From Verrucomicrobiaceae bacterium (GTDB lineage: Bacteria > Verrucomicrobiota > Verrucomicrobiia > Verrucomicrobiales > DEV007), in the NCBI GenBank assembly GCA_009936795.1, contig JAACDM010000481.1, forward strand, positions 1 through 38,732: a stretch of 38,732 bases of DNA, written 5' to 3'. Shown one piece after another: positions 18,725 through 27,737 of the stretch; within the stretch, counting starts at the first letter, position 1, and every line of letters starts with the position of its first letter. The notes beneath the pieces are model-generated. The model was given only the letters and a program-made list of their open reading frames with translations. It was not told the DNA's origin and searched no databases. The translations under genes were made by a program, and so were the position numbers.

Positions 18725-20235
18725 CAGTGTTTGGACGATGAAGAATCCTCGTTTGAATGATCAGAATCCTCTCCCCCTTCCTGCTCTGAACTCGGGGTGT
18801 CGTCAACCGAATCAGGCTTCTTGGGCTCTTCATTAGCATCTTCGTAAGGTCCGTTGTGGAATTCGTAACCACTGTAAGGATCACCAGCATCATCTGATTT
18901 CTCGTCCTCTCCAGAGTCAGGCCCAAAGCCATCTTCGTATTCCGGCACCCCATCACCCTCAGCAAGAGCATCATTTGCTTCAAAATCTGCCAGCGCGCTC
19001 TCATCTGTCGTCGTTCTGTCAGGTTCGGATTGTCCAACCGTTCCGACCGGCAGCGCACCAGGAACGGAAATTTCGCGCGCGGCTGCCCGCTTCTTCGCCC
19101 GAACGGCTCTTTCAGCTTCCTCCTCGGCTTCAAGTCGACGTCGCTTACGATCCATGAAGAAGGCCATCCAAATGCAGAACTCGTAGAGAATGACCATTGG
19201 CACCGCCAGCAAACAGAGGGTCGGAGCATCCGGCGTCGGCGTGATAATCGCTGCCACCACGAAGATGATGACGACCGCATGCGAGCGGTTCTTTGCCATG
19301 AAGCTGTAACCTAACAATTCGAGCTTCACCAGTGTTAGCACGACCACCGGCAATTCGAACGCAAGGCCAAAGATCAGGACGAGCTGACTGACAAAGCTAA
19401 CGTAATAGCCAATTCGATAATCCGATTGGATCCCAAGTTCTTCGGCATAGGAATGAAAGAATTCCAAGACACGAGGCGTGACAATCCAATAGGCAAACGA
19501 AGCTCCAAAGAGAAAGAGTAAGAAGCCAACGCCTACGGCAGGGATGACCGCCTTTTTCTCTTTGCCCGTCAACCCGGGGAACACGAACTGAGCAAAGAAA
19601 TAAAGCAGGAGCGGAAATGCTAGGATAATCCCTGCGAGCAACGAGATCTTTAGAGAAAGCATGAATGCCTCAGGCGGCTTCAGCGCACTCATCTCAATGA
19701 GATTCCCTTGGCGCCCAACCTTGGCGTTAGGGTTCTTCTCGACCAGTTTCAGAACCGTGTCGCGGAGCGGCACATTGTCAGTGATCGCTTTGTTCACAAA
19801 GGACTCTCGAGCTTCCTTTGGAAGAACCAGCGTGGCGTTGAAGAACGGTAAAGCCTCCACATAAAGGCGAAGATGTTTCTCCTTCTCACCGAGGGCAGCC
19901 GTGATGAAATCCTCACGATAGGTCTTGTCGAGGCTCGTCGCAGTCTTCGACAGAGTCTGAACCTTCAGCCAATCTAACTTGGCCACATCCGGCGGCAGAT
20001 CAATACTCGCACCAAGACCAGCCAACTCGATAGGGCGCTTCAGAGAATCGAAGAGCGGCTCTCGAAAGACAAACGCCCCGATCATAAAGATGATCAATGT
20101 CGCGATGACTTTAACCAGCATCTGCCGGAGCTCCTCCAAATGCTCGAGGAACGGCATCTCTTTGTCATGGTGCCCACGGTCGCGAGCAAGCTTTTCACGC
20201 GCTCCAAAGAGCTTACCTAGGACACGCTTCATCAT
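18724..20235 (-). CDS. tatC: Twin-arginine translocase subunit TatC, enlarged
   Basis: TatC is the membrane receptor for folded proteins carrying RR signal peptides. The N-terminal motif FLEHLEELRQML (29-40) and the later motif GLAFELPVVVLTLVKL (about 290-305) are diagnostic, with six hydrophobic spans ending near residue 360. At 503 residues it is about twice the usual length. One extra part is the first periplasmic loop, about 125 residues (60-185) and rich in charged residues. The other is a cytoplasmic tail of about 140 residues (362-503), first basic, then strongly acidic and Ser-rich. Its ATG overlaps the argH stop (TGATG). TatA and TatB are not in the window. A Tat substrate (the DUF1501 protein) is encoded downstream at 32403. 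Confidence 0.95.
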   Translation of the reverse strand: MMKRVLGKLFGAREKLARDRGHHDKEMPFLEHLEELRQMLVKVIATLIIFMIGAFVFREPLFDSLKRPIELAGLGASIDLPPDVAKLDWLKVQTLSKTATSLDKTYREDFITAALGEKEKHLRLYVEALPFFNATLVLPKEARESFVNKAITDNVPLRDTVLKLVEKNPNAKVGRQGNLIEMSALKPPEAFMLSLKISLLAGIILAFPLLLYFFAQFVFPGLTGKEKKAVIPAVGVGFLLFLFGASFAYWIVTPRVLEFFHSYAEELGIQSDYRIGYYVSFVSQLVLIFGLAFELPVVVLTLVKLELLGYSFMAKNRSHAVVIIFVVAAIITPTPDAPTLCLLAVPMVILYEFCIWMAFFMDRKRRRLEAEEEAERAVRAKKRAAAREISVPGALPVGTVGQSEPDRTTTDESALADFEANDALAEGDGVPEYEDGFGPDSGEDEKSDDAGDPYSGYEFHNGPYEDANEEPKKPDSVDDTPSSEQEGGEDSDHSNEDSSSSKH

Positions 20236-21608
20236 GGGGCAGACAGGTCGAGCTTGGTTGCCCAGTGGGCCAGTTCGTCATTCACCCGCTGTGGAGAAGG
20301 TGCCCCAATGGCCTCACGAGCAGCCAAGGCAGCATCCAAATTCAGGACACCAAAAACAGATTCTTCGAAGGCTTCGGAGAACTGCTGGAAGTGTTCCAAC
20401 GTCATGTCAGGAAACGCCACACGTTCTTCTAACGAATACGCAGTGAGCTTCCCAATAATCTCATGGGCTTGGCGAAACGGAACGCCCTGCTTCACCAAAT
20501 AATCCGCAAGATCAGTGGCCAACAGAAACGGGTCGCTTGCAGCAGCGCGCATGGACGCTTCTTTTACAGTGGCTTGGGCAATCATCTCCGTGAAGATATC
20601 TAAACACATCTCTGCCGTGTCAATAGAGTCAAAGAGCCGTTCCTTGTCTTCCTGCAAATCGCGATTGTAGGTCATGGGCAGCCCTTTGAGCGTTGTCAGC
20701 AACGCCATCAGATTTCCGTAAAGCCTGCCAGTCTTGCCACGCGTCAATTCCGCAGCATCTGGATTCTTTTTCTGCGGCATCAAGCTCGAGCCCGTGGTGT
20801 GCGCGTCGCTCAGCGCCATGAAATCGAACTCTGCAGAAACCCAGAGAATCACGTCCTCACTCAAGCGCGAAAGGTGCGTTCCTAACAACGCGAGATCGAA
20901 CAGCATCTCCGCCATGAAATCGCGATCACTCACGGCGTCCATGCTATTGCGACTGACCTTGGAAAACCCAAGTTCCTTAGCCACCGCCTCACGGTCAATT
21001 AAGATGGTAGAACCCGCCAAGGCACCACTGCCAAGGGGCATGCTATCAATCCGCTCACGGGCATCTTGCAATCGACCATGGTCCCGAGATAACATTTCCA
21101 CATAAGCGAGCAAGTGGTGACCTAGTAAGACGGGCTGCCCACGTTGTAAATGGGTGTAGCCAGGCAAGACCGCTTCGGGATGTCGCTGTCCTAGACCTAC
21201 GAGACTCGATCGGAGCGCACAAATCTTGATCGAAAGAGCGTCCACCGCATCGAGAGCATACAGACGCATATCAACAGCCACTTGGTCATTTCGGCTCCGA
21301 CCAGTGTGCAGCTTGGCACCGGCCGGACCAATACGATCCGTCAGTACCTTCTCGATATTCATGTGGATGTCCTCAAGATCGACACTGAAAGGAAAGGCGC
21401 CCTCCGCGATCTCTTGCTCAATCTGGCGTAGGCCATCAGCGATCGTCGCTGCCTCCTCAGATTTTAGAATACCAGCGCGCACCAAGCCATTGGCGTGGGC
21501 GATCGAAGCCCTCACATCGTGTTTATAAAGACGCCAATCGAACGAGATCGACTCGCCGAAGCGCTTCATCAAATCCGTGGTCTCTTCCTGAAATCTGCCC
21601 TTCCACAT
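20232..21608 (-). CDS. argH: Argininosuccinate lyase
   Basis: About 458 residues from the ATG at 21608, giving MWKGRFQEETTDLMKRFGES, the standard ArgH N-terminus; the open frame extends 13 codons further upstream without homology. The enzyme splits argininosuccinate into arginine and fumarate. The superfamily signature GSSLMPQKKNPDAAELTRGK, which carries the catalytic serine loop, is intact, and HTGRSRNDQVAVDMRLY and GYTHLQRGQPVLLGHHLLAY are present. The stop overlaps the tatC start. The Fur-family gene ends 44 bases upstream on the same strand. Confidence 0.97.
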   Translation of the reverse strand: MWKGRFQEETTDLMKRFGESISFDWRLYKHDVRASIAHANGLVRAGILKSEEAATIADGLRQIEQEIAEGAFPFSVDLEDIHMNIEKVLTDRIGPAGAKLHTGRSRNDQVAVDMRLYALDAVDALSIKICALRSSLVGLGQRHPEAVLPGYTHLQRGQPVLLGHHLLAYVEMLSRDHGRLQDARERIDSMPLGSGALAGSTILIDREAVAKELGFSKVSRNSMDAVSDRDFMAEMLFDLALLGTHLSRLSEDVILWVSAEFDFMALSDAHTTGSSLMPQKKNPDAAELTRGKTGRLYGNLMALLTTLKGLPMTYNRDLQEDKERLFDSIDTAEMCLDIFTEMIAQATVKEASMRAAASDPFLLATDLADYLVKQGVPFRQAHEIIGKLTAYSLEERVAFPDMTLEHFQQFSEAFEESVFGVLNLDAALAAREAIGAPSPQRVNDELAHWATKLDLSAP

Positions 21609-21652
21609 AAGCCGGCTGGAACATGTTCCGGGCACCTTCCGGCGCAAGTCCT

Positions 21653-22135
21653 TTAATCCTCCGCTACCGCGGCGTCTTCGTTCTTGCTACAAGCCCCAAA
21701 TCGCTGCAGTTCCTCGCAAGAGGCTTCGATCCGGATCATCTTCCGCGTCGGCTTGAATCCCAGCCGTCTGGTGATGCAATCTTCCAGAAGATTGATGTGC
21801 TCATCCTCAAATTCCACGACCTTGTCGCAATCGGTGCAAATTAAGTGATTGTGGTGAGGGTGATCTAGGAAATTGGGATCGTAGTGCTTGTTCTCCTTCC
21901 CAAGATCGATCTCGTGAAGAAGTCCACTCTCCACGAGAAGAGTCAGTGTCCGATACACGGTGGCACGAGAGGTCGACGCGTCCTGTTGACGAGCACGTTC
22001 CCAGAGTTCATCTGCGGTGAAATGCTCCTTTGTCGCGAATGCCGTTTGCACGATTCCCTCCCGCTGAGGGGTCTGGCGAAGTCCTTTCTTTTTAAGAAAG
22101 ATCTCGAATCGATCTTGGACGTCCTCAAGTTGCAT
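21653..22135 (-). CDS. Fur-family metal-responsive transcriptional regulator
   Basis: A 160-residue Fur-type repressor. The winged helix is at about residues 20-80 (FTADELWERA, TSRATVYRTLTLLVESGLLH), followed by the metal-binding dimer domain with HPHHNHLICTDC (92-103), which supplies histidine ligands and one CxxC. A second cysteine pair further on (Cys140, Cys149) is spaced differently from the usual structural zinc site. Sequence alone does not decide between iron (Fur), zinc (Zur) and peroxide (PerR) sensing. It heads the fur-argH-tatC run and is preceded on the same strand by the SRP RNA. Confidence 0.93.
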   Translation of the reverse strand: MQLEDVQDRFEIFLKKKGLRQTPQREGIVQTAFATKEHFTADELWERARQQDASTSRATVYRTLTLLVESGLLHEIDLGKENKHYDPNFLDHPHHNHLICTDCDKVVEFEDEHINLLEDCITRRLGFKPTRKMIRIEASCEELQRFGACSKNEDAAVAED

Positions 22136-22570: not shown

Positions 22571-23341
22571 ATGCACAACATGCTCACTACCCTGTCGCTG
22601 ATCGCACTGATCGGGGCGGCAGTCCTCAGCTTCATGAACAAGGAGAACCTCGCTACAGCGAAGGTCGACCAGAGCGAAATGAAGAAGGTTCTGAAACGGA
22701 CCGAAATCGAGTTGGAAGAGTCGACCAACACACTCAATGAACTCGACGGTAACTTGGTCACGGCAACTGCGGAACTCGAGACGTTCGCTACTGAAGCTGA
22801 GGCGCTAACATCACAGATCCAGGCGAAGGAAGATGAACTTGAGACGCTGCAAGGTAACCTTACGGACTCTCAAGAGAACCTCAGCGGGATGAAAGACGAA
22901 TTTTCCACCGTTGGTGATCTTGAGGCCGCCAAGAGTAGCCTTGAGGAACTCCGCGCAGAAGTCGCCACCCTTACAAGTAAAGCAAACGCCCTCACGAGCG
23001 AAGTGGCCAGCGCCACCAAGGTTTCTCAAAATCTGCAAAATGAGATTGATGAAATCACCGACCTCAACAAGAAGCAAGACGAGGGAATCGTAGCCGACGA
23101 CTTCTCTGCTGCCATCGCCCAGGTATACACCAATTGGGGCTTCGTCGTTCTCGGAGCAGGCAACAATCAACGCGCAGCAAAAGGAGCAACCCTGTCAGTC
23201 CGGCGCAACGGTGCAGAGATTGCTCAAATTACGATCACGGACCTGCTTCAAAATCGTGCTGTCGCTGATGTCGTTCGCGGCAGTCTCGCCGAGGGCGTGA
23301 CACTCCAAGCCGGAGATCGCGTTTACGCCCAAGCCAAGTAG
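22571..23341 (+). CDS. Membrane-anchored coiled-coil protein with C-terminal beta domain (paralogue 1)
   Basis: A 256-residue protein with one N-terminal hydrophobic segment (about residues 4-22, LTTLSLIALIGAAVLSF) that anchors it in the inner membrane. A long heptad-rich coiled coil follows (about 30-175). The C-terminal domain of about 75 residues is beta-rich and ends in LQAGDRVYAQAK. The next gene has the same layout and a related C-terminal domain (aligned W-x-F-V, GN, V-x-R-x-G, R-x-VA, QAGD-x-V). I do not recognise the family. It is the first gene of a three-gene plus-strand group ending at a terminator. The ATG has no obvious ribosome binding site; a second in-frame ATG lies three codons later. 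Confidence 0.8.
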   Translation: MHNMLTTLSLIALIGAAVLSFMNKENLATAKVDQSEMKKVLKRTEIELEESTNTLNELDGNLVTATAELETFATEAEALTSQIQAKEDELETLQGNLTDSQENLSGMKDEFSTVGDLEAAKSSLEELRAEVATLTSKANALTSEVASATKVSQNLQNEIDEITDLNKKQDEGIVADDFSAAIAQVYTNWGFVVLGAGNNQRAAKGATLSVRRNGAEIAQITITDLLQNRAVADVVRGSLAEGVTLQAGDRVYAQAK

Positions 23342-23387
23342 AGCAACTTAAACATTTCAGTAACCATCCTCTAAAGACTCTATTATC

Positions 23388-24164
23388 ATGAGCAAAGTAT
23401 TTCTTATCCTCGCCATCATCGCTGCCGGGGCGGCTTCCTTCATGGCTTTTGGAAACAAAGCCACCTTCACTGACGTCCTCGCAGAGAACAAGAAATCAAA
23501 GGCAGAGATCACCAAACTCAAGCGCCGCAATAGCACTGAGCTTGGTAAGATTGACAACGCCAAAGCTGACTTGGCTGCCGTTGAAGAATCCCGCAATGAG
23601 GCTGAGGCCCGTCGGAATTTAAAGCGTGAGAACCTGAACAAACGCTCCGCAGCCGTGAACACGACGAATGGCGAGCTACAGAAGGTGAATCTCGAAATTC
23701 AGGAACTGACAACGATTCTTAACGGCCTCGATCTTCCCAATCCTGAAGCTCTCAATTCCGAGTTGGAAACAGCCTCAGGAGAGAAGCTCGAGCTCGAGAC
23801 AACCATCGAAGAGCAGTCTATTCTCGCGGAAAGCCTGCGCACGTCGGTCAACGACAAGCGCGGCGTCCTCAAGAGCCTCAAAAAATCGAGCGCCGATCGC
23901 GCAGCCAGCCTTGGCGTACGCTCGCGCCGAGGCCGTATCTCGGCTGTCGATCCTAGCTGGGACTTCGCAGTCATTAACATCGGCAATACTGCCGGAATCA
24001 GCGCCAACGACCGTGTCATTGTGGAACGTGGTGGCCAGCGCGTCGGAATGTTGGTCGTCAAGTCGGTTGAGCGAGCAAGGATCGTCGCCAACCTCGTCCC
24101 TGAAACAGGTCAAGGCGTGCAGGCAGGTGATACGGTAATCTTTCAGCAGAAAGCAGACGGCTAA
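23388..24164 (+). CDS. Membrane-anchored coiled-coil protein with C-terminal beta domain (paralogue 2)
   Basis: A 258-residue paralogue of the preceding gene. It has an N-terminal hydrophobic segment (KVFLILAIIAAGAASFMAF), a charged coiled coil at about residues 25-175, and a C-terminal domain starting near GRISAVDPSWDFAVINIGNT and ending VQAGDTVIFQQKADG. The C-terminal domain resembles small beta-barrels found at the ends of other secreted coiled-coil proteins, but the function is unknown. It lies 46 bases after paralogue 1 and 41 before the lipoprotein gene. Divergence between the paralogues is high, so the duplication is old. Confidence 0.8.
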   Translation: MSKVFLILAIIAAGAASFMAFGNKATFTDVLAENKKSKAEITKLKRRNSTELGKIDNAKADLAAVEESRNEAEARRNLKRENLNKRSAAVNTTNGELQKVNLEIQELTTILNGLDLPNPEALNSELETASGEKLELETTIEEQSILAESLRTSVNDKRGVLKSLKKSSADRAASLGVRSRRGRISAVDPSWDFAVINIGNTAGISANDRVIVERGGQRVGMLVVKSVERARIVANLVPETGQGVQAGDTVIFQQKADG

Positions 24165-24205
24165 AAATTCAAGCAAGGCACTGGTAACGGTGTCACCCTC
24201 CGACC

Positions 24206-24385
24206 ATGAAATCATTCGCCTACCTCTTTGCGGCCCTTGGGATCCTTAGTCTCGGAGCATGTGAAAGCATTAAATTTAAGGGTGACGACTCAGGCGGAAC
24301 AATGCCATGGACTTCACCTGAAGGCTTCGAATCCTCAGGTGCGGGCACTCCTTTCGGAGCCATGGGCGGTCTCCAAGGCCGCTAA
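24206..24385 (+). CDS. Small lipoprotein
   Basis: A 59-residue product starting MKSFAYLFAALGILSLGACE. This is a lipoprotein signal with lipobox LGAC, so Cys19 would be lipidated. The mature part is about 40 residues, rich in Gly, Ser and Pro, with no domain. It follows the two coiled-coil paralogues and ends 30 bases before a strong terminator, so it is probably the last gene of that operon. Its small size makes it easy to miss in automated calls. Confidence 0.75.
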   Translation: MKSFAYLFAALGILSLGACESIKFKGDDSGGTMPWTSPEGFESSGAGTPFGAMGGLQGR

Positions 24386-24415
24386 TTTCGAGCTCTAAAC
24401 GAAATCTCTTCTACA

Positions 24416-24447
24416 GAAAGGCGGCCCCAGGGTCGCCTTTCTTGTTT
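24416..24447 (+). terminator. Rho-independent terminator of coiled-coil operon
   Basis: The stem GAAAGGCG pairs with CGCCTTTC across a C/G-rich loop and is followed by TTGTTT. It sits 30 bases after the lipoprotein stop. The stem is symmetric enough to work only weakly, if at all, on the other strand. Confidence 0.8.
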
Positions 24448-24841: not shown

Positions 24842-25330
24842 CTACTTGGAAAACGTTCTAGGAGGGTCCCCGGGCTTGGGAATGTGCTCGAAGTCCCCTT
24901 CCTCACAGCACCGCACGAAGCCTTCCGTAAAACCCTTGAGATGCTCCCAGACACTCCGAATCTCTTCCGATTCATCGTCGGTGATGGAGTTGTCCACGGC
25001 CGCCTTTGAGATCGTCGACAGAAGGTCCGCAAATTGCTGCACGATCTCGTTCGTGGCTGGCACCACTTCAAAGCCCTCATCGCAAAAACTCTTTGGATTC
25101 CGCACAAAGTAGCCACCGGCTTGCTGGCAGAGCCACTCAATGATACCTGAATCCCCTGTAAGCGTCCGCAGTTGGTCCACACGGTCCAAAGGATTGCGGC
25201 TTCCGCTCCCCATATCCGTATTCGGCTGCGCCCACTTGTAGACGAGCGAGAGTGAAAGTCCCATCTCCGCAGCCACCTCCTTGGGTCCCCGGTTCTTGAA
25301 AGCCTTGCGAATCACGTCGTGAGAATCCAT
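24842..25330 (-). CDS. Helix-turn-helix protein resembling phage CII-type regulators
   Basis: 162 residues from the ATG at 25330, which has GGGA upstream; an in-frame TTG at 25360 would add ten. The N-terminal part is a helix-turn-helix (FKNRGPKEVAAEMGLSLSLV, then YKWAQP) of the kind in phage P2-like CII/CP76 proteins. The middle is helical (QQFADLLSTISKAAVDNSIT, then DDESEEIR), also as in that family. Such proteins are found as chromosomal genes in Verrucomicrobia outside any prophage, and no phage genes are seen here. It is divergent from the secreted Ala-rich protein and may regulate it, an inference from position only. Confidence 0.65.
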   Translation of the reverse strand: MDSHDVIRKAFKNRGPKEVAAEMGLSLSLVYKWAQPNTDMGSGSRNPLDRVDQLRTLTGDSGIIEWLCQQAGGYFVRNPKSFCDEGFEVVPATNEIVQQFADLLSTISKAAVDNSITDDESEEIRSVWEHLKGFTEGFVRCCEEGDFEHIPKPGDPPRTFSK

Positions 25331-25552
25331 GATTTCCCATAAACTAAACTTAGCTTTCAATCGATCAGAAAACGCGATTTGCCTCAGCAGATCGAGCCGT
25401 CACAAAGAAATCTCCCCTGAATTCTCAATTTGCCTTGAAAAAACTGGTAGAAACCGTTCGAAATGAGAGTATCAGTATAGGAATTCGCTTGCGCGATCCG
25501 GCAATTCTCCGATACCTTTAACAGAACTATTTACCAAACGAGGAAACAACGC

Positions 25553-26176
25553 ATGAAGAAAGTTATTCTTACCACCTCCATCGCCGCTCTGGGACTGGCT
25601 CTCCAGGCCTCTGCAGCGGATCTCACCGAGAAGCTGATCGACGCGAAGAGCTGCAAAGCTGCTTCCCAGCTTGTCACTACGGGCATGAATGTTTCCAGCG
25701 AAGTCGCCACGGTGACCGCTACGCTTGAAGTTGCTCTCAAAGCAAAAGCCTCCTGCGCATGCGAGACAGTGACCGCTGTCATCGAAGCCACCGGAGCTGA
25801 CGCCAAAGACAAGAAGGCTCTCATCGAGGCAATCTTCGAAACCGCTATCACCGCGCTTCCTGAGGAGACGGCCGCCATCACTGAGTGCGCAGTCGCGGCA
25901 GCTCCAGCGCACGCTTCCACTATCGAGAAGGTTCTCAACAAGGTCTTCGCCGGCCAAGACAACGATTACCTCGGCGAAAGTGGTTCCGAGAAGGGCTACT
26001 CCAAGCAGGAAAGCTACGGTAAGAGCGAGCCTGTCGAAACAGAAGAGGTAGCCGAAGAGTCTGAATATCCAGTCTACTCGCTTCCCGCGCCAGTCTACCT
26101 CATCGCTCCAAGTGGTGGGATCGTTCCTCCAGGTGAGTTCTCACCGGTAAGCCCAAGCAGTCCATCCAAGGACTAG
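25553..26176 (+). CDS. Secreted Ala-rich protein with Pro/Ser-rich tail
   Basis: A 207-residue protein with a clear signal peptide (MKKVILTTSIAALGLALQAS, cleaved after ASA). The mature N-terminal half (23-133) is helical and rich in Ala, Thr and Glu with four cysteines (34, 68, 70, 112) that could form disulfides. The second half is acidic, then Pro/Ser-rich and apparently disordered. GAGGAAACAACGC before the ATG is one of the best ribosome binding sites in the window, and a strong terminator follows, so the gene is probably well expressed as a single-gene unit. I do not recognise the family. Confidence 0.8.
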   Translation: MKKVILTTSIAALGLALQASAADLTEKLIDAKSCKAASQLVTTGMNVSSEVATVTATLEVALKAKASCACETVTAVIEATGADAKDKKALIEAIFETAITALPEETAAITECAVAAAPAHASTIEKVLNKVFAGQDNDYLGESGSEKGYSKQESYGKSEPVETEEVAEESEYPVYSLPAPVYLIAPSGGIVPPGEFSPVSPSSPSKD

Positions 26177-26345: not shown

Positions 26346-27737
26346 ATGCTTGGCAATATGACCGAGCTGCAGTTCGACAAGGGGACACTGATCCTGCATC
26401 GGCTCACCCAAGAAGAACAGCAGACTCTGCAGCTAGCGGGCGTGCAATGGGATCAACGCACCCAAACCCATCGCGCCCCAGCTTGGTATTACCGCGAGAT
26501 CATTCTCCAACTGCGCCAGAATGAGGTCGCTCATGAGGACCACGCCAAGAGCTTCGAACCGGTAGCACTTCCTCTGAAGAAGCCTATCACCCCGCGGCCC
26601 TTCCAAGCTAAGGCACGCGATGCTTGGATCGAGAACGGCAAGCAAGGTGTCGTTGTACTGCCGACGGGAGCGGGCAAGACCGTCCTAGCGGTGCTCCTGA
26701 TCAGCTTGACGGAACGCCCGACGCTCATTCACGTCCCCACGATTGATCTTATGCATCAATGGATCGATGTGCTCTCGGCCCATTTCGATGAACCCATCGG
26801 CGCACTCGGCGGTGGCAGTCATGAAATTGAACGCCTCACGGTTTCCACTTACGATTCGGCCCTCATCCATGCCACACACAAGGGGAACGCTTTCGGGTTT
26901 GTCATCTATGATGAATGTCATCATTTGCCGAGCGAACAGTATCAATTCACCGCTCTGGCGACTTTAGCGCCCTTTCGACTCGGACTCACCGCCACGCCGG
27001 AACGAGCCGATGGACGTGAAGCCCAACTTTACGAATGGCTAGGCGGTCTTTGTCTCACGATTCACATAGACGAATTGGAGGGTAACACCTTGGCTCCGTA
27101 CGATGTGGAAACGATCGAGATCGATCTGACTGATGAGGAACGGGCCATTTATGACGAAACACGTGCAAACTACATCGACTTCCTCCGCAGTGAACACATC
27201 AACATGAGTTCGCCACGTGGCTGGCAAACATTCATTTATCGATCCAGCCTTACACCTGAAGGTCGCCAAGCCTTCCAAGCGTATCTCACACAGAAACGTC
27301 TCAGCCAGGCAGCCGCTGGAAAGGAAGAAGCTATCTGGAATCTTCTCCAGCAGCATAGAGGCGATCTTATCCTCATCTTCACTCAGGACAACGACATGGC
27401 GTATCGGTTAGGCCGTCGATTCCTTCTCCCCGTACTCACTCACCAGACCAAGGTCAAGGAGCGTAAAGCCTTTCTCGACGCCTTTCGCGCAGGAGACTAT
27501 CGCATCCTCGTCACGTCTAAAGTGCTCAACGAAGGTGTCGATGTGCCCGAAGCCAATGTCGCCATTGTCGTCTCTGGAAGTGGCAGCATCCGCGAACATG
27601 TGCAGCGGCTCGGCCGCGTGCTCCGCGCCCGCCCTGGCAAACGCGCTACACTTTACGAACTCATCGCTCGCGATACTGGCGAGTATTATATCAACGAACG
27701 GCGACGCCAACACCGTGCTTACGAAAGATTTAGTTAG
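26346..27737 (+). CDS. XPB-type DNA helicase (superfamily 2)
   Basis: A 463-residue SF2 helicase of the XPB/RAD25 type. An N-terminal damage-recognition-like domain (about 1-75) precedes helicase domain 1: Walker A LPTGAGKT (105-112), DEAH-box variant YDECHH (188-193) and motif III TAT (215-217). Helicase domain 2 has VTSKVLNEGVDVPEANVAIV and motif VI QRLGRVLRARPGK (420-432). The combination with a downstream DUF790 gene identifies it as the bacterial counterpart of archaeal XPB, which opens DNA at damage and works with the nuclease Bax1. A second in-frame ATG four codons on is an alternative start; neither has a good ribosome site. Confidence 0.9.
   Translation: MLGNMTELQFDKGTLILHRLTQEEQQTLQLAGVQWDQRTQTHRAPAWYYREIILQLRQNEVAHEDHAKSFEPVALPLKKPITPRPFQAKARDAWIENGKQGVVVLPTGAGKTVLAVLLISLTERPTLIHVPTIDLMHQWIDVLSAHFDEPIGALGGGSHEIERLTVSTYDSALIHATHKGNAFGFVIYDECHHLPSEQYQFTALATLAPFRLGLTATPERADGREAQLYEWLGGLCLTIHIDELEGNTLAPYDVETIEIDLTDEERAIYDETRANYIDFLRSEHINMSSPRGWQTFIYRSSLTPEGRQAFQAYLTQKRLSQAAAGKEEAIWNLLQQHRGDLILIFTQDNDMAYRLGRRFLLPVLTHQTKVKERKAFLDAFRAGDYRILVTSKVLNEGVDVPEANVAIVVSGSGSIREHVQRLGRVLRARPGKRATLYELIARDTGEYYINERRRQHRAYERFS

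Follow-up and report, generated by a model that had tools for sequence, protein, structure and literature searches.

Our analysis of the Verrucomicrobiota describes a small gene unit whose core is one gene for a membrane-anchored coil protein with a beta domain, together with a gene for a short lipoprotein, here called C. The two genes are adjacent in many lineages of the phylum, which suggests a component of the cell envelope that has not been described so far. The Verrucomicrobiota, among them the gut commensal Akkermansia muciniphila, are enclosed by an envelope of two membranes, and little is known of the parts dedicated to it; Akkermansia and the genome studied here fall in one order, and the unit is present in Akkermansia too. 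Since the unit occurs in many lineages and one half of it is kept even by genomes of 0.9 Mb, a basic role in the envelope is likely, and the 10-residue tail motif of C provides a direct handle on its partner.

Gene layout and linkage across the phylum

In the window, i.e. the whole stretch of 38,732 nucleotides that was analysed, two coil genes (A and B) precede C. An earlier note on this DNA had proposed these three open reading frames, and the sequence confirms them. The features are as follows:

20232..21647, minus strand: argH, second synteny anchor (Pfam Lyase_1 and ASL_C2); the true start may be further in
21653..22135, minus strand: fur-family regulator, divergent neighbour and synteny anchor outside the unit (Pfam FUR, E 4.6e-29)
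22571..23341, plus strand: gene A, 256 aa, N-terminal membrane helix, two helices and beta domain (open reading frame, AF2 model)
23105..23329, plus strand: beta domain of A, six strands, FlgT-C / F1-ATPase N-barrel type (predicted model)
23388..24164, plus strand: gene B, 258 aa, same plan as gene A (open reading frame, AF2 model)
23928..24143, plus strand: beta domain of B (predicted model, structure comparison)
24206..24385, plus strand: gene C, lipoprotein of 59 residues (open reading frame, alignment, linkage)
24251..24262, plus strand: lipobox LGAC of C with Cys19 and Glu as +2 residue (sequence)
24302..24331, plus strand: C-terminal motif of C, MPWTSPEGFE in the window (alignment)
24415..24442, plus strand: intrinsic-terminator-like hairpin, 12 pairs, T-rich tail (terminator scan)

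The intergenic gaps measure 46 bp between A and B and 41 bp between B and C. The lipoprotein nature of C, which had been read from the sequence, is borne out by its lipobox, and so is the terminator closing the unit, by the 12-pair stem and its T-rich tail. This hairpin has the longest stem of the seven terminator-like sites found on both strands of the region, compared with 3.4 ± 2.0 sites in shuffled sequences. Elsewhere in the window we observed a match to Phage_CP76, a CII-like regulator (24842-25360, minus strand, E 3.3e-9), a protein of 207 aa that begins like a signal peptide and matches no curated family above noise (25553-26176, plus strand) and an XPB/ERCC3-like helicase (26346-27737, plus strand, XPB_DRD 2.2e-18).

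The earlier note had named beforehand, as the test by which its proposal could be refuted, whether the unit is kept together in relatives, and C was found to be kept after the coil gene. Within the order this holds for 36 of 38 judgeable loci, window included, counting C after the last coil gene; the full set comprises 41 loci with the window, from which two without a complete coil gene (L078, L098) and one that is cut (L082) were left out. The two order loci lacking C are the second A/B pair of one genome (L095) and a solo paralogue (L096). Far beyond the genus, the same linkage extends to other orders of the class (19 of 20 loci) and to other classes of Verrucomicrobiota (11 of 15). C was searched for in these loci with E<1 over 7141 open reading frames, of which 76 passed, comprising the 66 counted C genes and 10 elsewhere. 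The 32 rows of the C model were taken from lipoprotein reading frames adjoining coil genes: 15 of the 36 loci counted in the order and 17 of the 19 in other orders contributed to it, but none of the 11 in other classes, and the coil and barrel profiles were built from sequences of the order only. A regular expression misses C in many loci, including L121 and L126; the profile finds both, and the copy in L126 is visible on direct reading of the sequence.

A-like and B-like matches are each present in 37 of the 38 order genomes, the window's included, and the one genome without an A/B match (G002) is 88% complete. In the whole class, the B profile matches 138 of 141 genomes. Two adjacent coil genes were seen in 34 of the 40 fetched order neighbourhoods; the other six are five neighbourhoods cut by contig ends (L067, L078, L094, L097, L098) and the solo paralogue of L096.

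A genome-wide approach, in which 193 genomes of the phylum were searched separately with the beta domain and with C, gave 124 beta-domain-positive genomes at E<=0.001. Here linkage was judged from the listed matches, covering 86 of the 124 barrel-positive genomes and 149 of the 193 for C; 13 genomes with a listed barrel match had no C match among those listed. Every genome matches the C model at E<=1, partly via the signal peptide, and the best hit and its position were used. In 65 of the 73 genomes with both listed, a beta-domain gene is followed immediately by the best C match (downstream, on the same strand, at most 800 bp away); these 65 are not independent, because many are close relatives (several are Akkermansia), and some of them supplied rows to the search models. 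The eight misses are G207, G252, G253 and five genomes of family f59.

At its core, the unit consists of a single coil gene and C. Loci of the other orders carry a single coil gene in 19 of 20 cases, mostly together with C, the exception being a pair at L127. A quick tree of 119 sequences, computed without bootstrap and containing several long branches, places all 35 A proteins on one branch (SH-aLRT 98), which agrees with the ancient paralogy of A and B claimed earlier. Tandem pairs of f56, of f59 and of L127 each group among themselves (supports 87, 100 and 91), so comparable duplications arose separately. By the sequences compared, A and B are the products of a duplication common to the order, the tandem pairs elsewhere having arisen separately. 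Tandem barrel genes occur in 28 of the 86 listed genomes, 22 of them from the order and six from other classes. From the heteromeric set of three parts that the earlier note had suggested, the gene linkage stands; the single coil gene of the other orders and the loci in which C has no recognised coil gene beside it speak against a strictly three-part complex.

The position of the unit is partly conserved as well. In the order, fur adjoins it in 14 of 40 loci and argH also in 11, many loci being cut short; in the other orders argH adjoins the unit in 4 of 20 loci and fur also in two.

Predicted structure of the coil proteins

The beta domains of A and B share 29% identity over 75 residues (E 2e-6), and a single profile made from both recovers both. 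AF2 models based on alignments of 35 (A) and 37 (B) sequences predict one order of parts, in which a membrane helix runs into a long helix, followed by a conserved break, another helix and six strands. For A, the helices cover residues 2-113 and 117-170 with the break at 114-116 and the strands at 179-253 (mean pLDDT 83.5, pTM 0.47). For B, they cover residues 2-107 and 119-179, with the break at about residue 108-118 and the strands at 181-252 (mean pLDDT 82.1, pTM 0.41). The models thereby support the inner-membrane anchor, the coil and the shared beta domain that had been assigned to both proteins. The coil is not predicted as one uninterrupted helix of 150 residues: because both models show the break, it would consist of two helices, and a straight rod of 150 residues spanning the periplasm, as imagined in the earlier note, is doubtful.

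At the low pTM of both models, the two helices may pack in more than one way. The second helix, measured from the break to the barrel, hardly changes in length (63 residues in 36 of 37 B rows, 61-62 in all 35 A rows), and loops of differing length are seen at the break of B among the aligned rows. Both features weakly back a possible helical hairpin, which, if real, would return the barrel to the side of the inner membrane. The first helix measures 86-87 residues in 29 of 37 B rows and 91-92 in 29 of 35 A rows, the remainder being mostly longer. It reaches at least 90 residues in 8 of the 37 B rows and at least 96 in 5 of the 35 A rows, and the second helix is not lengthened there, which speaks against a strict hairpin register. 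The coil may instead form a kinked rod.

Several variations were observed among the homologues. In 20 of the 35 A rows there is a Pro/Ala-rich C-terminal tail with DPF repeats (e.g. L061, L069, L072, L084), two or more repeats being present in 17 rows; the A protein of the window has no such tail. Possibly, this tail is a second docking peptide. At L092 (G005:C4) the B frame is seemingly split into two overlapping frames of 235 and 96 aa, perhaps by a frameshift or an assembly error. Proteins of 217-241 aa that are related to the beta domain and encoded singly were found in the genome of the window (L150, G000:C185:4188-4904) and at L151, L152, L153 and L155. Their neighbourhoods differ, and L153 (G032) lies among apparent ribosomal protein genes, as judged by eye.

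Comparisons with known families and folds concern mainly the barrel. In Pfam and NCBIfam searches with A and B, the matches listed were uninformative coiled-coil matches, and the beta-domain profile found nothing credible among PDB sequences (best E 0.23). Foldseek places FlgT (3w1e) first for both models, with E values of 5.1e-5 and 4.0e-5; beside it at the head of both lists stands the LPHT ring (8z5n). VIA-align Z scores are 11.7 for 8z5n, 10.7 for 3w1e and up to 11.8 for the N-terminal barrels of F1-ATPase. Since the F1-ATPase barrels score level with FlgT, the fold match does not single out FlgT. According to the models, the A/B barrel belongs to the FlgT-C / F1-ATPase N-barrel fold type; a shared fold shows no function. 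At the sequence level, FlgT_C is weakly matched by 9 of 35 members (best E 0.0029), and the B domain of the window reaches 13.4 bits against this Pfam family, which is below the gathering score of 27. FlgT_C is absent from the Pfam matches of full-length B and from the best 25 of the 113 matches of full-length A.

In view of the two helices and the barrel, the coil proteins could be minimal periplasmic adaptors of the EmrA/MacA type, lacking the lipoyl domain and leading from an inner-membrane pump to an outer-membrane channel that C helps to seat. EmrA ranks fourth in Foldseek for both models, and the available text of a review (PMC4446572) describes a common topology of the FlgT C-domain, the F1 barrel and the beta-barrels of adaptor proteins. 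Against this, the lipoyl segments are absent, the barrel as a whole comes after the helices, agreement with EmrA is poor (TM 0.27, rmsd 24 and 32), and the recurring neighbour clusters include none that looks transporter-like by eye. We consider such an adaptor very unlikely.

Lipoprotein C, its tail motif and a possible role in the envelope

C is characterised by its C-terminal motif, roughly PW(N/S)xPxxWE, with the consensus tail SxxPWNRPxxWEG. Over the 32 aligned rows P34 is invariant and E42 is conserved in at least 90%; Cys19 is invariant in all 32, which were chosen for having a lipobox. As a strict DNA pattern, PWxxPxxWE occurs in 98 of the 141 genomes of the class, in single copy in 85 of these, and the control pattern read backwards occurs in 9 of 141. 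Some strict-pattern matches are not C (e.g. in G080, G090, G099, G116 and G131), and the divergent motif of the window (PWTSPEGFE) is missed by it. The C protein of the window matched no family in Pfam or NCBIfam; the other C rows gave scattered weak family matches (Pfam, best E 0.002; NCBIfam, best E 0.0013). A lipobox-like string was read automatically in 60 of the 66 C genes, the first string being taken and a few perhaps misread, and none of these 60 showed Asp at position +2. This is consistent with sorting to the outer membrane by the E. coli rule, unproven for this phylum.

C also occurs where no coil gene is detected. In two genomes of 0.92 Mb (G053 and G061; loci L158 and L159) no coil-gene match was obtained, and C is retained, with the motif IPWNRPADWE in both, beside argH and fur, i.e. 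the anchors that adjoin A, B and C in the window. In a genome of 2.5 Mb from the same genus (G115) a coil gene without C is present at L115, and the motif is found on another contig, in a stretch lacking fur, argH, M23 and the coil gene. C without a recognised adjoining coil gene was further detected in f54, f61, f60 and some f16 loci. Upstream of some of the C genes that stand alone, a coil gene beyond the reach of the profiles could hide, and L168 and L175 show weak matches of this kind. Family f59 has coil genes without C at four loci, and in five of its genomes (L178-L182) the motif forms the C-terminus of another lipoprotein, 147-153 residues long, with an extra domain. This lipoprotein follows an apparent dnaN (judged by eye) in 3 of the 5 loci, and a Pfam search with two of them gave no match worth naming. 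It seems that the tail motif, rather than the entire C gene, is kept by selection. Since C is found without the coil gene, the main partner of its tail is probably not the coil protein, and binding between the two is not needed where C persists without a recognised coil gene.

The retention of C bears on two other explanations. One is a domesticated two-component spanin of phage origin, fusing the membranes at lysis. In the available text of PMC6139136, a spanin comprises an inner-membrane coil protein with two linker-joined helices and a small outer-membrane lipoprotein, and a PHROGs search returned weak spanin and tape-measure matches, the spanin profiles giving best E values of 0.0013 for a relative of B and 0.0097 for the A protein of the window. 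These matches are confined to the membrane helix, the coil or the signal peptide, however, a barrel is present, and retention of the genes extends across the phylum, often at an argH-fur site, no lysis genes being noticed. A lysis pair would offer no reason to keep C after loss of the coil gene. On the neighbourhood and on this retention the Rz/Rz1 reading was rejected, and we regard a spanin as extremely improbable.

The other explanation takes C as a cofactor of outer-membrane biogenesis, whose short tail would occupy its site on a universal machine of that membrane (BamA, LptD or the lipoprotein pathway), the coil protein being a separate, co-transcribed periplasmic chaperone or spacer. In E. 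coli, LptM acts on LptD in this way. Retention of C without the coil gene, including in the two genomes of 0.9 Mb, and the ability of the motif to ride on another lipoprotein in f59 both argue for it. NCBIfam LptM matches occur in 6 of the 32 C members, at noise level (best E 0.048), and the signal peptide may explain them. The strong linkage of C and coil gene is left unexplained by this explanation, and no biogenesis gene was a constant neighbour in the neighbourhoods read, where most flanking genes are unannotated. A cofactor of this kind is unlikely in our estimation.

A minority of loci directs attention to the cell wall. Upstream of the unit and in the same orientation, a gene for an M23 peptidase is present in 12 of the 40 order loci, one of them (L089) with a partial match at the locus end, and in 1 of the 20 other-order loci; for two of these genes the M23 domain was confirmed by Pfam. 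The coil proteins could accordingly belong to a regulator of cell-wall hydrolysis, EnvC/FtsEX-like or an MreC-like scaffold, positioning the M23 endopeptidase with C as the anchor at the outer membrane. Weak matches to MreC point in the same direction (2 of 35 members with the beta domain, best E 0.0061; MreC 2j5u at Foldseek rank 40), although MreC is absent from the Pfam matches of full-length B and from the best 25 of 113 for full-length A. The M23 gene is missing beside most copies of the unit, including that of the window, and its distance of about 230-520 bp suggests a separate promoter. A single transcript with M23 is doubtful at such gaps, and this kind of regulator appears distinctly unlikely.

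We tentatively favour, with somewhat less than even confidence, an envelope module made of an inner-membrane spacer and a lipoprotein of the outer membrane that would dock by its tail on a conserved partner. The fold of A and B is predicted by the models; location, hairpin, docking, partner and purpose are inferred. A and B would be seated in the inner membrane via the N-terminal helix, and their periplasmic part would comprise two helices, possibly as a hairpin with the loop pointing outwards. The six-stranded barrel may form rings or other oligomers, in this order perhaps as mixtures of A and B. C would leave the cytoplasm as a lipoprotein and probably reach the outer membrane, where it would present the conserved tail, roughly PWNxPxxWE, on a short variable linker. 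This tail may dock on a conserved periplasmic or outer-membrane partner, and wherever a coil gene is present the coil protein would be held beside that partner. The purpose could be envelope spacing or coupling of the membranes, perhaps also cell-wall remodelling in view of the M23 gene upstream in a minority of loci. A wider version, somewhat unlikely in our view, would be an envelope system defining the phylum, in which an outer-membrane lipoprotein would carry PWNxPxxWE at its C-terminus as a portable docking peptide for a universal partner, and helix-and-barrel proteins of the inner membrane, duplicated into pairs several times, would build an adaptor or ring joining this partner to the inner membrane.

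Comparison with known systems

Among the matches listed, our literature search contained no paper on the coil-C unit. The signature protein named in the available part of PMC3444138 is different from this unit. The nearest published item found is a Methylacidiphilum lipoprotein (WP_009060351), which, in the available text of PMC10260701, is proposed to link the outer membrane and peptidoglycan. Like C it is a lipoprotein from Verrucomicrobiota, and it is a different gene. With its published N-terminus, orthologues of 151-156 aa (from the first start codon) were found in 5 of 8 f12 genomes. Identity with C was rejected, as the orthologues lie at other sites and have a different terminal domain, and the C profile matched them in the signal peptide alone, at about 6 bits. 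In one f12 genome with such an orthologue, C is a protein of 82 residues. The orthologues at L195-L199 mark f12 g41 as Methylacidiphilum-like.

In small size and lipobox, C resembles the class of Braun lipoprotein and LptM. Braun-type Lpp is cross-linked to peptidoglycan by a C-terminal Lys, whereas C has the PW...WE motif at this end. The C protein of the window ends in Arg, and a Lys end occurs in 0 of the 32 aligned rows; a relative of C in f54 (L160) does end in Lys.

With FlgT of the Vibrio flagellar H-ring, A and B share the six-stranded barrel of the C-terminal domain (Pfam FlgT_C). FlgT is a ring protein of the flagellum and, unlike A and B, no membrane-anchored coil protein.

The statement of the earlier note that no known system has this layout was too strong, since spanins and periplasmic adaptor proteins share parts of it. 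The unit resembles phage spanins (Rz/Rz1) in that a coil protein and a small lipoprotein, here predicted for the inner and the outer membrane, respectively, are encoded by neighbouring genes. It is distinguished from them by the extra barrel, the conserved tail motif and its chromosomal nature. Instead of standing in a phage lysis cassette, the unit of the window lies at argH-fur and is retained across the phylum. Periplasmic adaptors of the EmrA, MacA and HlyD type resemble A and B in the inner-membrane anchor, two long helices and a barrel of the same topology, as far as the available text of PMC4446572 describes them. Their lipoyl domain is split by the hairpin, whereas the models of A and B have no strands before or between the long helices. 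Of the adaptor-type hairpin and barrel, the models show helix, break, helix and barrel, whose helices may or may not be packed antiparallel at pTM 0.41-0.47. Adaptors work with an inner-membrane transporter; none was noticed beside A and B, and the order of parts is different. The layout of the unit echoes both spanins and adaptors, and it departs from each of them in at least one feature by which membership is defined.
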